Shown in pieces: positions 2,218 to 59,211 of a DNA stretch of 64,000 bases; position 1 is the first letter of the stretch; every line of letters begins with the position of its first letter. The translations under genes were made by a program, and so were the position numbers. Source of the stretch: a virus. The stretch lies in IMG/VR virus record IMGVR_UViG_3300025941_000001, positions 1-64,000 of that record. The stretch is one strand, 5' to 3'. A model generated the notes under the pieces. That model was not told the origin of the DNA and searched no databases. It worked only from the letters and a program-made list of their open reading frames with translations.

Positions 2218-2450
2218 CGCTCGACGGTCCCGACACAAGATACATGATGTTCTGGCGCGGCGCGTGGAGGCCGGTCGTTCACATGCTCATGGCGAACAAC
2301 GCGCAGACGTTCAACGTGATGCAAGCTGGCAAGGCGGTGCTTTACGTCGCCGAGGCATTCGGTTGGGTTGCAGTGAGCATCAACCCGGGCGACCTTATCG
2401 AACGTGTGGACCGAGACCCGGCGAAACGAGAATGGGCATACATTGATTAA
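2214..2450 (+). CDS. Hypothetical protein, 78 aa, GTG start
   Basis: GTG start at 2214 overlaps the upstream TGA. The protein has alternating short beta-like segments (RYMMFWRGAWRPVV, KAVLYVAEAFGWVAV). Its TAA overlaps the TTAACC element of the following promoter. No family recognised; last gene of the first transcription unit. Confidence 0.6.
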   Translation: MTLDGPDTRYMMFWRGAWRPVVHMLMANNAQTFNVMQAGKAVLYVAEAFGWVAVSINPGDLIERVDRDPAKREWAYID

Positions 2451-2497
2451 CCACTTTCATTTTTCCGCTTGACGGCGTCTTCGACCGGGCGTAATGC
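2447..2497 (+). promoter_or_regulatory. Promoter with upstream TTAACC element
   Basis: TTAACC at 2447-2452 is followed 22 nt later (start to start) by TTGACG (2469-2474), a 17-nt spacer and TAATGC (2492-2497). The geometry is one base off the 23-17 arrangement seen at 3853, 5552, 6441 and 59.1k. It sits 51 bp upstream of the next start codon. Confidence 0.6.
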
Positions 2498-3602: not shown

Positions 3603-3845
3603 ATGATGAGCAAGGCTCCCCAATTCGTTGCCGAAGAAGTCTGGCGCGTTGCCCAGTCGGTCGTCGAGAACGCGATCAGCGAGGTTGACTGCGGCCGAGG
3701 CGGCGCGTTCAACACGTGCCAGCACTGCTATGAGCGCGTATGGTGGCAAGAGCCATACGAGAAGATCGTGCACAAGCCCGATTGCTTGTTCCTAGTCGCC
3801 CGGGACCTTTTGACCGGAGCCCCGGACAGCATCACGAGGGGTTAA
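3603..3845 (+). CDS. Small protein with putative zinc-binding CxxC...H...C motif, 80 aa
   Basis: The ATG at 3603 has GGAAG 7 nt upstream. An in-frame codon at 3528 would force translation through the 3542-3572 hairpin. Residues CQHC followed by HKPDC give a C2HC-like zinc site, a pattern common in small phage proteins. Role unknown. Confidence 0.6.
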   Translation: MMSKAPQFVAEEVWRVAQSVVENAISEVDCGRGGAFNTCQHCYERVWWQEPYEKIVHKPDCLFLVARDLLTGAPDSITRG

Positions 3846-3852
3846 CGGTTTA

Positions 3853-3904
3853 TTAACCATCCCCCATCTTCCTGCTTGCATCCGGGATAGGCCCGCGCTA
3901 CATC
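3853..3904 (+). promoter_or_regulatory. Early-type promoter (TTAACC-23-17 family)
   Basis: TTAACC 3853-3858, -35 TTGCAT 3876-3881, 17-nt spacer, -10 TACATC 3899-3904. Start-to-start distance from TTAACC to -35 is 23 nt. The spacer carries CCGGGAT and ends GCGC, shared with the promoters at 59.1k. Drives the AAA+ gene at 3952. Confidence 0.75.
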
Positions 3905-3951
3905 GGTCTCGTCGGGGACAGAACCCCGGCCCTACAGCAACAGGACCTAAA

Positions 3952-5544
3952 ATGACCGCTCAGATTTCCAAAGGCCAAAAGACCGCGACGGACATCTCTT
4001 CCTTGCTCCGCGCTCGCAACCCGCTGATCCAAGTGATCAGCCGTGAAGAGGCTCGCGTCGAAGGTTTCCTCGCGGAAGCCGCTGCCGCCGCCGGTTACAA
4101 AATTCTCTTCTGGGATATCGCTCAGGGCGTCACCAATCTTGACGGCAAACCCGCCGCCTCGTTCCGTGACGCGCAGGACCCGGCGACCGCTTTCAGCTAC
4201 GTCCGCAATGAAGCGGACAAGGGCGAGAAGGGCGAGCGCTACGTGTGGGTCTTCCGCGACCTCTCGACTTGGCTCGAAGGCCAGTCCGGTGCTGCCCCGC
4301 GTCGTCAACTTCGCAACCTCGCGAAGTACCTGCCGAGCGTCGGCCGCAAGTCGGCTCAGGCTATCGTGATCCTGACCACCTCGGCGACCGTGCAGGACGA
4401 TCTCGCTGGCCACGCTACGGTCATCGACTTCCCGCTCCCGGACCGCTCCGAGATTGAGAAGGTGTTGCAGACTGCGCTTGACAGCCTGCCGGACGACCTC
4501 AAGGCCGACGCTGCGCCGAATGGCACGCGTGACCTCGCGATTGACGCCGCTGTCGGCCTGACCGCCGAGGAAGCCGCGTCATGCTACGCGAAGTCTCTCG
4601 TCCAGACGAAAAAGATCGACCCGGCGATTGTCGCCAACGAAAAGAAGCGCGTCATCTCTCGTGAGCGCGTGCTCGAATGGATTGAGCCGGTGAACGGTGG
4701 CCTCGACGCTGTCGGCGGGCTGGAGAACTTCAAGGCGTGGCTGTCGCCCCGCAAGAACGCCTACAGCGCGAAGGCTCGCGAGTATGGTCTCCCGGCTCCG
4801 AAGGGCGTCGTGCTGACCGGCATCCCGGGCTGCGGTAAGTCGCTCGCTGCGAAGTGCACGCCTACCTCGTGGGGCGTTCCGCTTCTCAGGCTCGACCCGG
4901 GCGCGCTCAAGGGCAAGTTCGTCGGCGACAGCGAGGGCAACGTTCGTAAAGCTCTCAAGGTCATCGAAGCTCTGGGTCGCTGCATCGTGTGGATTGACGA
5001 AATCGAGAAGGCCCTTCAAGGTTCGGATGGCAACTCGGCGGACGGTGGCGTCTCTTCGGATCAACTCGGCACGCTGTTGAATTGGTTTCAAGAGCGCAAG
5101 AGCGAGGCTTTCGTGATCGTCACGTCGAACGATCTGACCAAGCTCCCGCCGGAGCTTATCCGTAAGGGCCGGTTCGACGAAGTGTTCTTCGTTGATCTCC
5201 CGAACCACGATGAGCGCAAGTCGGTGTTGAAAGCCGCGCTCAAAGCCAACGGCCGGGGCTCGGTCTTGGTGGACTTCGAGAAGCTCGCCGACGCGACCGA
5301 GACGTTCTCGGGCGCTGAGATCGCCGAACTCGTTCCGACCGCGCTGTATGTCGCGTTCGAAGACGAGGCCCGCGAGATCACGACCGAGGACTTGATCGCC
5401 GCTGCCAAGGCTGTCACGCCGATGGCGAAGACCGATGAGAAGCGCATCGCCCTCATCCGGGAGAAAGCCGCTAACCTCCGCCCGGCGACCGCCGAGGCGA
5501 AGGTCGGGGCCTCGGGCTCCAAGGGTCGGAAGATCGACCTTTAA
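3952..5544 (+). CDS. Ycf46-like AAA+ ATPase, 530 aa
   Basis: Single C-terminal AAA+ module: Walker A GIPGCGKS at residues 290-297, pore-loop-like GKFVGDSEG around 321-329, Walker B CIVWIDEIE at 344-352, and arginine-finger region RKGRFDEVFFVDLP. The first 240 residues resemble the N-terminal region of Ycf46-type ATPases (NPLIQVISREEARVEGFL). Family members remodel protein complexes; the substrate is unknown here. It has its own promoter, and the next gene encodes a helical protein whose C-terminus shares the G-R-x-I-D-L pattern (GRKIDL here, GRAIDL there), suggesting the two act together. Start has no competing ATG nearby. Confidence 0.9.
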   Translation: MTAQISKGQKTATDISSLLRARNPLIQVISREEARVEGFLAEAAAAAGYKILFWDIAQGVTNLDGKPAASFRDAQDPATAFSYVRNEADKGEKGERYVWVFRDLSTWLEGQSGAAPRRQLRNLAKYLPSVGRKSAQAIVILTTSATVQDDLAGHATVIDFPLPDRSEIEKVLQTALDSLPDDLKADAAPNGTRDLAIDAAVGLTAEEAASCYAKSLVQTKKIDPAIVANEKKRVISRERVLEWIEPVNGGLDAVGGLENFKAWLSPRKNAYSAKAREYGLPAPKGVVLTGIPGCGKSLAAKCTPTSWGVPLLRLDPGALKGKFVGDSEGNVRKALKVIEALGRCIVWIDEIEKALQGSDGNSADGGVSSDQLGTLLNWFQERKSEAFVIVTSNDLTKLPPELIRKGRFDEVFFVDLPNHDERKSVLKAALKANGRGSVLVDFEKLADATETFSGAEIAELVPTALYVAFEDEAREITTEDLIAAAKAVTPMAKTDEKRIALIREKAANLRPATAEAKVGASGSKGRKIDL

Positions 5545-5551
5545 GACTTCG

Positions 5552-5603
5552 TTAACCATCCCCCGGGTTCGTCCGTGACAAGCCCGGGGAGATGGACTAC
5601 ATC
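5552..5603 (+). promoter_or_regulatory. Early-type promoter (TTAACC-23-17 family)
   Basis: TTAACC 5552-5557, -35 GTGACA 5575-5580, 17-nt spacer, -10 TACATC 5598-5603. A direct repeat GACAAGCCCGGGG overlaps the -35/spacer and recurs just after the -10 (5577-5589 and about 5608-5620). Drives 5653. Confidence 0.7.
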
Positions 5604-5652
5604 ACGGACAAGCCCGGGGCGGTTCTCGGGCGCAGCAACAAAGGAACGCGAA

Positions 5653-6444
5653 ATGCCCATCTCAGTATCAACCCTCCGGCCCGGCCTGCTCGTTCACGTC
5701 TCGACGAGCATCAAGGGCAACGTCTCTTACGACAAGGGCGAAGAGAAAGTCTCGATTGGCGAAGACGGTGCCGAGGTCTCCGAATGGACGACCGAGCGGA
5801 CCATCCTCGACGCGAAGGAACAGAAGCTCGCGACCGAGGTGAAGTCCAAGGCGCGCAACCTCGTCGTCGGCGTCTGCATCGCGACCGAGCACGGGCTGCT
5901 CTGCCCGATCTCCAAGCGCGATGATCTGGACGCGGCTTTCGATACCGCCCGGGGCCTCGTCGCCGCGTTCAACGCGACCTCGAAGTTCACTCGCTTGAAG
6001 TTCAACGCGCTGGCCGGTTTCATCGCCGAGGACGATGTCAAGGCTGCGAAGGCTATCCGCAGCGAGATCAGCGACCTCATCGAAGAGATGAAGGTCGGCA
6101 TTGAAAACGTCGATGTCGAGCGCGTCCGTGACGCGGCCAGCCGTGCCAAGAAAATCGGCAACATGCTGACGCCGGAGTTGCAGGCCCGCGTTGACGACGC
6201 CGTCAAGGACGTTCGTGCTCAGGCCAAGAAGCTCGTGGAAGCGGGCGAGCAGGCGGCGACCGCCATTGACGCGGCGACGATCAACAAGCTCGCTGCCGCC
6301 CGCACGGCCTTCCTTGACCTCGACGACGCGGCCGACGTGCAGGCCCCGGCCGATAGCTCCGGCCGCGCCATCGACCTCGCCCCGTGCGAGACCGAGGCTC
6401 CGGCCCCGGCCGCCGCTCAGGCTCGGGAGATCGAAATCGCTTAA
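5653..6444 (+). CDS. Predicted coiled-coil partner of the AAA+ ATPase, 263 aa
   Basis: ATG at 5653 preceded by AAGGAA; an in-frame codon at 5575 would lie inside the promoter. N-terminal about 100 residues look beta-rich (VHVSTSIKGNVSYDKG), residues about 100-220 are strongly helical with heptad-like Leu/Val/Ala spacing, and the tail is acidic and Ala/Pro-rich, ending REIEIA. In other phages proteins of this shape sit beside AAA+ genes; a role as adaptor or substrate is inferred from neighbourhood. Not recognised as an enzyme. Confidence 0.65.
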   Translation: MPISVSTLRPGLLVHVSTSIKGNVSYDKGEEKVSIGEDGAEVSEWTTERTILDAKEQKLATEVKSKARNLVVGVCIATEHGLLCPISKRDDLDAAFDTARGLVAAFNATSKFTRLKFNALAGFIAEDDVKAAKAIRSEISDLIEEMKVGIENVDVERVRDAASRAKKIGNMLTPELQARVDDAVKDVRAQAKKLVEAGEQAATAIDAATINKLAAARTAFLDLDDAADVQAPADSSGRAIDLAPCETEAPAPAAAQAREIEIA

Positions 6445-6492
6445 CCATTCCCCGGGGCGGCTCTTGCGGGTCGCCCCGGACCCTGCTACAAC
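6441..6492 (+). promoter_or_regulatory. Early-type promoter (TTAACC-23-17 family)
   Basis: TTAACC 6441-6446 overlaps the upstream TAA; -35 TTGCGG 6464-6469, 17-nt spacer, -10 TACAAC 6487-6492. CCCCGGGG and CCGGA repeats in the spacer. Start codon 31 bp downstream at 6523. Confidence 0.7.
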
Positions 6493-8906: not shown

Positions 8907-8985
8907 CAGGGCGTGGGGGAGTTTGGCCGTCCCCGCGTGGCCCGGACCCACGAGATCGCAGGTTCAAATCCTGTCGCCCTGACCA
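8907..8985 (+). tRNA. tRNA-Pro (CGG)
   Basis: Acceptor CAGGGCG/CGCCCTG, discriminator A and encoded CCA. D stem GGGG/CCCC, anticodon stem CGTGG/CCACG with loop CCCGGAC, T arm GCAGG-TTCAAAT-CCTGT. All stems pair. Oddity: position 33 is C rather than the nearly universal U. Confidence 0.9.
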
Positions 8986-9021
8986 TTACCATCACATCGA
9001 CGACTACCCAACGCTAAGCCT

Positions 9022-9095
9022 GCGGGCTTGGTGTAGCGGTAGCACAACGGGCTCTGAACCCGTCAGTCTGGGTTCAAATCCTAGAGCCCGTGCCA
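9022..9095 (+). tRNA. tRNA-Gln (CTG)
   Basis: Acceptor GCGGGCT/AGCCCGT (G1-U72 wobble), discriminator G, encoded CCA. Anticodon stem ACGGG/CCCGT, loop CTCTGAA with normal U33; T arm CTGGG-TTCAAAT-CCTAG. The most regular member of the cluster. Confidence 0.92.
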
Positions 9096-9098
9096 TTC

Positions 9099-9174
9099 GT
9101 CGATGTAGCTCAGTGGTAGAGCAGTCCCCTCGTAACGGACAGGTCGAAGGTTCAATTCCATTCCATCGGCACCA
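9099..9174 (+). tRNA. tRNA-Thr (CGT), irregular
   Basis: Acceptor GTCGATG/CATCGGC, D arm GCTC/GAGC, anticodon loop CTCGTAA. The anticodon stem has a C31-C39 mismatch, and the T-stem GAAGG pairs with CCTTC only if an extra A is bulged out (CCATTC). CCA is encoded. May be degraded, or may fold with the bulge. Confidence 0.8.
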
Positions 9175-9180
9175 TTTCAC

Positions 9181-9258
9181 GACAGCGTAGCTCAGCCCGG
9201 TAGAGCGCCGGGCTCATAACCCGGATGTCATAGGTTCAAATCCTATCGTCTGTCACCA
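9181..9258 (+). tRNA. tRNA-Met (CAT), bulged acceptor stem
   Basis: Anticodon loop CTCATAA on a stem CCGGG/CCCGG whose three G:C pairs resemble initiator tRNA, but position 1-72 is G-C, unlike a bacterial initiator. T arm ATAGG-TTCAAAT-CCTAT pairs fully. Acceptor GACAGCG pairs with CGTCTGTC only with one U bulged. Could also be an Ile2 tRNA read by lysidine modification. CCA encoded. Confidence 0.85.
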
Positions 9259-9260
9259 AT

Positions 9261-9337
9261 GCCCAGTGTAGCTCAGCGGGGAGAGCGCGCGACCGATAAT
9301 CGCGAGGTCGCCGGTTCGAACCCGGCCACTGGCACCA
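9261..9337 (+). tRNA. tRNA-Ile (GAT), C33 and bulged acceptor stem
   Basis: Anticodon stem CGCGA/TCGCG, loop CCGATAA, so position 33 is C. T arm GCCGG-TTCGAAC-CCGGC is perfect. The 5' acceptor reads GCCCAGTG against CACTGGC, i.e. one extra C. CCA encoded. Confidence 0.87.
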
Positions 9338-9342
9338 TTCCC

Positions 9343-9418
9343 GGGCCGCGTAGCTCAGCGGGAGAGCATCTGTTTTGCAAGCAGAGGGTCGTCGGTTCAA
9401 ATCCGACCCGGTCCACCA
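9343..9418 (+). tRNA. tRNA-Ala (TGC), bulged acceptor stem
   Basis: Anticodon stem TCTGT/GCAGA, loop TTTGCAA, T arm GTCGG-TTCAAAT-CCGAC. The 5' acceptor strand is GGGCCGCG against CCGGTCC, one extra C. CCA encoded. Followed by CTCGAC-ATG-GTCGAG (9423-9437) and GTCGGA-ATAA-TCCGAC (9454-9469) hairpins that may end or process the transcript. Confidence 0.87.
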
Positions 9419-10010: not shown

Positions 10011-10048
10011 TTAACCCTCTTGCAATCTCTCGCGGCATCATGTAGGCA
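10011..10048 (+). promoter_or_regulatory. Possible promoter with TTAACC element
   Basis: TTAACC at 10011-10016, TTGCAA at 10020-10025, 17-nt spacer and weak TAGGCA at 10043-10048. TTAACC is only 9 nt from this -35, so it does not fit the 23-nt geometry of the other members. Confidence 0.4.
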
Positions 10049-18598: not shown

Positions 18599-18627
18599 CC
18601 TTTAGCCGTTAACCATGTTCAAGTCAA
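18599..18627 (-). promoter_or_regulatory. Leftward promoter of the lysis unit
   Basis: On the minus strand: TTGACT (18622-18627), 17-nt spacer containing AACATGGTTAACGG, TAAAGG (18599-18604). The AACAtGGTTAA element recurs at 27.4k and 49.2k. Confidence 0.55.
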
Positions 18628-54353: not shown

Positions 54354-54589
54354 GGCGTCCTCTTCATGCTGTTATAGCCCCGCTCCCACTCCGCCGCAAG
54401 TGCCCCGTCATTTGGGGTTAACAATTCGTTGTGCGGGTTCTCCGCCGGACGCCCGAGCCGCCGGGCCTCGCGTCCCTTGTAGAAGGCGATCTCCAGCGGG
54501 GACATGGACGGCGTCGGCGTGAACTTCGAATGCGGCACCAAAATGGAAACGCCGACCGAGTGGGTCGGCTTTGGAAATCGTTGGGCCAT
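54350..54589 (-). CDS. Untagged protein within the tagged array, 79 aa
   Basis: MAQRFPKPTHSVGVSILVPH, followed by IAFYKGREARRLGRPAENPH and AAEWERGYNSM. The pattern YxxGxExxxxG...N-P...W..GY resembles ribosome-modulation-factor-like phage proteins; weak. Coupled by one-base overlap to 54589-55077. Confidence 0.6.
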   Translation of the reverse strand: MAQRFPKPTHSVGVSILVPHSKFTPTPSMSPLEIAFYKGREARRLGRPAENPHNELLTPNDGALAAEWERGYNSMKRTP

Positions 54590-59066: not shown

Positions 59067-59118
59067 GATGTAGCGCATCCCGGATGAGCCCGCAAGCCGA
59101 ACCGTGTGACGTGGTTAA
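59067..59118 (-). promoter_or_regulatory. Early-type leftward promoter (TTAACC-23-17 family)
   Basis: Minus strand: TTAACC (59113-59118), -35 TTGCGG (59090-59095) exactly 23 nt on, 17-nt spacer with CATCCGGGATGCGC, -10 TACATC (59067-59072). Mirror image of the promoter at 59160. Confidence 0.75.
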
Positions 59119-59159
59119 CACTTCGATAACGCCCGGCTGGCCGGGGTTTTAACCGTGCG

Positions 59160-59211
59160 TAAACCATAGGCCGAGGTGTCGCTTGCGGGTCCATCCGGGA
59201 TGCGCTACGTC
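59160..59211 (+). promoter_or_regulatory. Early-type rightward promoter (TTAACC-23-17 family)
   Basis: TAAACC (59160-59165), -35 TTGCGG (59183-59188) 23 nt on, 17-nt spacer CATCCGGGATGCGC, -10 TACGTC (59206-59211). Divergent partner of the promoter at 59067; core sequences are nearly identical. Confidence 0.75.

Follow-up and report, generated by a model that had tools for sequence, protein, structure and literature searches.

The window analysed here comprises positions 1-64,000 of the virus record IMGVR_UViG_3300025941_000001 and is part of the 93.8-kb phage record G000. Three consecutive genes on its plus strand, the first encoding an AAA ATPase, are each preceded by a box beginning with TTAACC and by a core promoter. 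These promoters (P1 to P3) and further members of the set are listed in Table 1. In Mycobacterium phages, whose host is quite different, neighbouring genes encode proteins related to the AAA ATPase (44% identity) and to the 263-aa protein (41%). Ahead of the start codon, the P1 leader (3905-3951) has CCTACAGCAAC-type stretches in common with leaders elsewhere in the set; it also contains a conserved hairpin, GGGGACAG(AA)CCCC.

Table 1. Promoter elements, associated genes and inverted repeats in the window.
Feature	Position	Strand	Details
Offset-22 member	2447..2497	+	TTAACCAC, TTGACG (2469), TAATGC (2492); present in L013 too
P1 upstream half box TTAA	3842..3845	+	TTAA-N7-TTAACC; overlaps stop codon of upstream gene
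P1 box TTAACCAT	3853..3860	+
P1 core	3876..3904	+	TTGCAT 3876-3881, 17-nt spacer, TACATC 3899-3904, GC before TACATC
P1 gene, AAA ATPase, 530 aa	3952..5544	+	Pfam AAA, 1.5e-25
P2 upstream half box TTAA	5541..5544	+	overlaps stop codon
P2 box TTAACCAT	5552..5559	+
P2 inverted repeat around -35	5558..5593	+	GC-rich; -23.2 kcal/mol, z = -4.0
P2 core	5575..5603	+	GTGACA 5575-5580, TACATC 5598-5603
P2 gene, 263 aa	5653..6444	+	no Pfam match
P3 box TTAACCAT	6441..6448	+	half site only; ATCG at the position 11 bp upstream
P3 inverted repeat	6452..6479	+	GC-rich, 12-bp stem, -35 in loop; -26.3 kcal/mol, z = -3.5
P3 core	6464..6492	+	TTGCGG 6464-6469, TACAAC 6487-6492
P3 gene, 115 aa	6523..6870	+	no Pfam match
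Offset-22 member	54371..54421	-	TTAACC box, TTGCGG, TATAAC; conserved at G002 54771 and G005 417
Divergent pair, minus member	59067..59118	-	TTAACCAC box at 59118, TTGCGG, TACATC; TTAT 11 bp upstream
Divergent pair, plus member	59149..59211	+	TTAA (59149)-N7-TAAACCAT (59160), TTGCGG (59183), TACGTC (59206)

Elsewhere in the window, a tRNA cluster (8907-9418) comprises Pro, Gln, Thr, Ile and Ala tRNAs and one more found by Rfam at 9182-9254. It is followed at 10011-10047 by a second conserved layout, TTAACCCTCTTGCAA-N17-TAGGCA, with a box 9 nt before the -35 and similar arrangements at L006 9136 and L007 9767. One protein of the window gene set matches ribosome modulation factor. In the remainder of the record (64-93.8 kb; L033 and L034), family matches include Tad3, a Thoeris inhibitor, and Mom, which serves DNA modification.

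Spacing between TTAACC and the core promoter

Offsets were counted from the start of TTAACC to the start of the -35 over the range 6-69, with [TG]TG-N17-TAnnnY as the core pattern. Pairs in the window occurred at offsets 22 (two), 23 (four), 24 (one) and 34 (one), and at none of the remaining offsets of that range. When TACANC was sought downstream of TTAACC with gaps of 33-43 permitted, all four matches in the window had a gap of exactly 40, and 100 shuffles gave none. The preliminary description had placed TTAACC 23 nt before the -35 of three consecutive genes, with a 17-nt spacer. This is exact at 3853, 5552 and 6441 (+), where the spacer leads from TTGCAT, GTGACA and TTGCGG to TACATC, TACATC and TACAAC, respectively. 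The site at 2447, reported as one base off, indeed has an offset of 22. Of the two exact fits also claimed at 59.1 kb, the one on the minus strand (59118) holds. On the plus strand, TTAACC (59149) has an offset of 34 to TTGCGG, and the offset of 23 belongs to a TAAACC box (59160), the two boxes forming an 11-bp-spaced pair. The offset-24 member at 18609(+) is oriented antisense to the gene there.

Cores cluster at offsets 22-24 from TTAACC across five related phage records (G000-G004, 383 kb) as they do in the window. In these records, TTAAC[CT] paired with TTG-N17-TAnnnY 16 times at offset 23, four times at 22, once at 24 and three times at 34, with 0 or 1 at any other single offset; the 61 offsets apart from 22-24 held 13 sites in all, including the three at 34. 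The corresponding Poisson P value is about 7e-25, a guide only because orthologous sites are not independent; different sites of one record precede different genes and are closer to independence. Permuted control hexamers gave 0 or 1 at offsets 22-24.

Relatives of the AAA gene in IMG/VR with 61-99% amino-acid identity (L006, L007, L008, L009, L013) have the promoter in the corresponding position, the P1 box in L008 being TTTACC rather than TTAACC. TTAACC is absent directly upstream of the AAA gene in the seven relatives of 51-60% identity with readable upstream DNA (L010, L011, L012, L015, L016, L018, L024). Sites comparable to 59118(-) are present in G002, G003 and L102. For terminase, portal and DNA polymerase, the nearest named relative is Roseobacter phage RDJL3, followed by Pseudomonas siphophages.

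The offset statistics and the orthologous conservation strongly support a fixed-geometry, activator-type promoter family. The preliminary description had left the choice between an activator and a modified polymerase, and the second is not needed. A scan of 88 proteins predicted from the 93.8-kb record, among them a minority of the structural proteins and none of the smallest frames, recognised no RNA polymerase, sigma factor or OmpR-type regulator. A modified or phage-encoded RNA polymerase was rejected because none was recognised among these proteins.

Box sequence, core type and hairpins

We aligned 24 sites with an offset of 23 and a 17-nt spacer, allowing one mismatch in the first six box positions on selection. 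Their consensus is TTAA(C)-N7-TTAACCA(T/C)-N15-CTTG(C/A)-N~17-GCTANATC. From -58 to -51 the box counts are T24 T23 A23 A24 C24 C21 A23 T16, and the unselected upstream half from -69 to -65 gives T15 T17 A16 A18 C16. Scanning spacings of 4-30 upstream of the box, we found the TTAA half at spacing 11 exactly in 8 of the 24 sites and with at least three of four bases matching in 16, compared with at most four sites at any other spacing (P about 6e-21 for the enrichment at 11). The upstream halves at 3842 and 5541 overlap stop codons and alone prove little; the spacing statistics do not rest on these two halves. The second half, 11 bp upstream and missed in the preliminary description, turns TTAACC into TTAA-N7-TTAACCAT. 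Exact TTAA-N7-TTAA occurs at three dispersed sites in G000 (3842, 5541 and 88766).

The core consensus of the 24 sites comprises CTTG(C/A) at -36 to -32 and GCTANATC at -14 to -7. C is found at -13 in 22 of 24, TA in all 24, A at -9 in 17, T at -8 in 17 and C at -7 in 15; TTG/GTG and TA were inclusion requirements, so their counts are selected. Malakooti et al. (cited in PMC1175088) reportedly described in 1995 an alphaproteobacterial housekeeping consensus with TTG at -35 and GCTANAWC at -10. CTTG[CA]-N17-GCTANATC agrees with this in bases and spacing and is a core of the alphaproteobacterial housekeeping (sigma-73/sigma-70) type. By sequence, the weak-looking core is an ordinary alphaproteobacterial sigma-70-type core, a point overlooked earlier.

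A GC-rich inverted repeat surrounds the -35, which lies in or beside the loop, at the promoters following the AAA gene and the 263-aa gene in the records aligned; a further one is present at G004 70097. Of the 26 sites folded, 11 had z values of -2.8 to -5.0 and 15 of -1.8 to +1.5. In the aligned sequences, stems vary between phages and the pairing appears to be kept. A U-tract terminator was looked for at the P2 and P3 hairpins and none was found. The hairpins probably represent the ends of upstream transcripts, overlapped by the next promoter.

Outside the window, at 68.09-68.36 kb of G000 (L033 4092-4363), a palindromic TTAACCTTAATAGTTAAGGTTAA repeat array with 16 TTAAC in 270 bp sits in an AT-rich stretch, roughly 1 kb long, that separates divergently oriented genes. 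Related arrays are found at G002 42.2-42.5 kb, G003 50.3-50.9 kb and G004 85.1-85.5 kb. The array is a candidate replication origin or operator array. Binding of one and the same protein to the array and the promoters was rejected, the TTAA spacings in the array being 6, 7, 13 and 19, not 11.

Occurrence in viral and bacterial genomes

Searching 2.9 million viral contigs with TTAACCAY-N15-TTG-N19-CTANANC returned 55 stretches. Nearly all GC-rich ones (GC at least 0.59) are related records or closely similar sites; L095 and L107 are unassigned GC-rich matches to the strict pattern. The AT-rich IMG/VR matches were set aside as chance or unrelated coding sequence by appearance, many of them being one repeated coding-like sequence. 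Neither phiCbK nor RDJL3 contains the exact layout. A looser search of these two and of RDJL Phi 1, DSS3P8 and Lacusarx yielded a few matches, in none of which TTAACC stands at offset 23.

In the GTDB species set, a slightly stricter pattern was matched 24 times, with the matches spread across the taxonomy. Among 190 alphaproteobacterial genomes there were two matches, one of them in the centre genome, which had been chosen for its prior match. In 150 Hyphomicrobiales genomes, TTAACCAY with the strict core at any of 25 offsets matched twice, fewer than the reversed-pattern control, so that no host promoter with this layout was found that would show it to work. A Rhizobium genome had four matches to the layout and five to the control; in an Amylibacter MAG the counts were three and five. 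Mimicry of a common host promoter layout was therefore rejected, matches being rare or no more frequent than the control in the sampled bacterial genomes. The scarcity in bacterial genomes and other phages marks the layout as a property of the phage clade and not of hosts in general. As for the host, the terminase gave a best identity of 40% across 385 alphaproteobacterial genomes, DUF3222 had no match anywhere and was hence uninformative, and matches of the phage tRNAs to plasmids were weak and mixed.

Candidate regulators and comparison with known systems

Published motifs of CtrA, which is the master regulator governing the cell cycle in Alphaproteobacteria, comprise TTAA-N7-TTAA, the half site TTAA and ungapped TTAACCAT (PMC6180460, PMC4287350, PMC9437464). 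Going by sequence, TTAA-N7-TTAACCAT is a match to the CtrA full box in its known TTAACCAT variant. In unrelated phages of Alphaproteobacteria, host CtrA is known to bind promoters and to regulate them (PMC9437464), and agrobacterial CtrA sites lie further upstream than Caulobacter ones (PMC10469942). We consider phosphorylated host CtrA to be the activator of these phage promoters with a probability of about 0.65. This reading is based on the identity of the box with published CtrA motifs, including a half at spacing 11 only; the rigid core offset in the window and four related records; the two precedents just cited; the lack of a recognised OmpR-type regulator, sigma factor or RNA polymerase among the 88 proteins; and a Roseobacter phage as nearest named relative. 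Counting against activation by CtrA, the boxes here do not overlap the -35, unlike most activating CtrA sites (PMC11264516, PMC4287350). The failure to find a host promoter of this layout in the 150 Hyphomicrobiales genomes and the overlap of two upstream TTAA halves with stop codons also count against it.

The housekeeping polymerase of a presumably alphaproteobacterial host would transcribe from the CTTG[CA]-N17-GCTANATC core. The response regulator CtrA would bind upstream, at TTAA-N7-TTAACCAT or at a lone TTAACCAT half site. The full box is centred near -62, and its constant distance would keep it on a constant helical face. This position and the rigid distance to a weak -35 argue for a class I mode, in which phosphorylated CtrA most likely recruits polymerase, probably through the alpha C-terminal domain. 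The genes for the AAA ATPase, the 263-aa and 115-aa proteins and others would then depend on the cell-cycle or motility state of the host. The constant placement of CtrA-type boxes before a set of its promoters suggests that this group of uncultured phages senses host cell-cycle state to time its own genes.

It is unlikely, albeit worth weighing, that the protein at TTAA-N7-TTAACCAT is instead a phage-encoded activator of an unrecognised family that recruits polymerase. Such a protein would fit a geometry essentially confined to the phage clade. No family could be assigned to many of the record's small proteins, and the same records hold a second, different TTAACC-containing array that is presumably protein-bound. 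The motif nevertheless equals the published CtrA motif down to the 11-bp repeat, and neither an OmpR-type nor another DNA-binding activator was recognised among the scanned proteins.

We regard it as improbable that CtrA binds here to repress or delay the promoters, a lytic deferment through repression as in Brevundimonas phage Delta. Repressing half sites in Caulobacter sit over the -10 (PMC4287350), and selection for contact activation would be expected to produce just such a rigid 23-bp distance from a weak -35. Precedents for repression are the DELTA_120 promoter, which is repressed by CtrA (PMC9437464), and pilA, whose expression is reduced and delayed by upstream CtrA sites (PMC11264516). 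An UP-element-like or curvature element contacting polymerase directly, without a regulator, is very improbable: the box is AT-rich in a GC-rich genome and lies about where distal UP subsites do, but its almost invariant CC (positions 5-6) and A (7) and the specific 11-bp repeat are unlike A/T tracts.

Returning to host CtrA, its control of phage promoters is already known for phiCbK gp005/gp018, Cp1R7A-A1 gp019 and vB_BsubS-Delta (PMC9437464). The promoters described here share with them the TTAA-N7-TTAA boxes, the location in promoter regions between genes of tailed phages, and downstream genes that mostly lack a known function. In the known cases, the sites are concentrated in one genome region, with low positional entropy (PMC9437464). 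In our own alignment of the phiCbK terminal repeat (L083), the boxes start 26-27 nt before the apparent -10 and overlap the -35, whereas the full box here starts 57 nt before the -10 with a TTG -35 in between. CtrA-activated promoters of Caulobacter share the box sequence and the occurrence of full and half sites. Their box, however, begins near -35 to -39 and canonically covers the -35; here it begins at about -69, the core has a -35 of its own, and the TTAACC box starts 23 nt before it in the 24 aligned sites. The box is about three DNA turns upstream of the Caulobacter and phiCbK placement.

N4-type promoters, which are read by a virion RNA polymerase that the phage itself supplies, all carry a hairpin. 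That model was rejected, as strong hairpins occur in a subset of the 26 folded sites only and no phage RNA polymerase was recognised among the scanned proteins. Closer in layout are class I activator-dependent promoters, where CRP binds at -61.5. They likewise have an activator site centred near -62 and a complete but weak core downstream; the putative regulator here would differ in being an OmpR-type direct-repeat binder, with a presumed alpha contact.

As far as searched, there is no earlier description of a class I-like position for the box, of the rigid layout, of the lineage or of hairpins with the -35 in the loop. We tentatively propose that the lineage evolved a promoter class of its own, absent from the hosts sampled and from the other phages considered. 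CtrA, normally a regulator sitting over the -35, or else a phage-encoded protein of unknown family that copies its specificity, would there activate in class I fashion from a rigid -62, with the -35 at two conserved sites placed in the loop of a hairpin marking the end of the upstream gene. If this holds, a further phage lineage, kin of Roseobacter and Pseudomonas siphophages, reads the host CtrA pathway, CtrA is able to act from a class I position, and the fixed-geometry promoter set provides a clean test case for lytic deferment. The restricted, rigid layout is usable as a signature for such phages in metagenomes.
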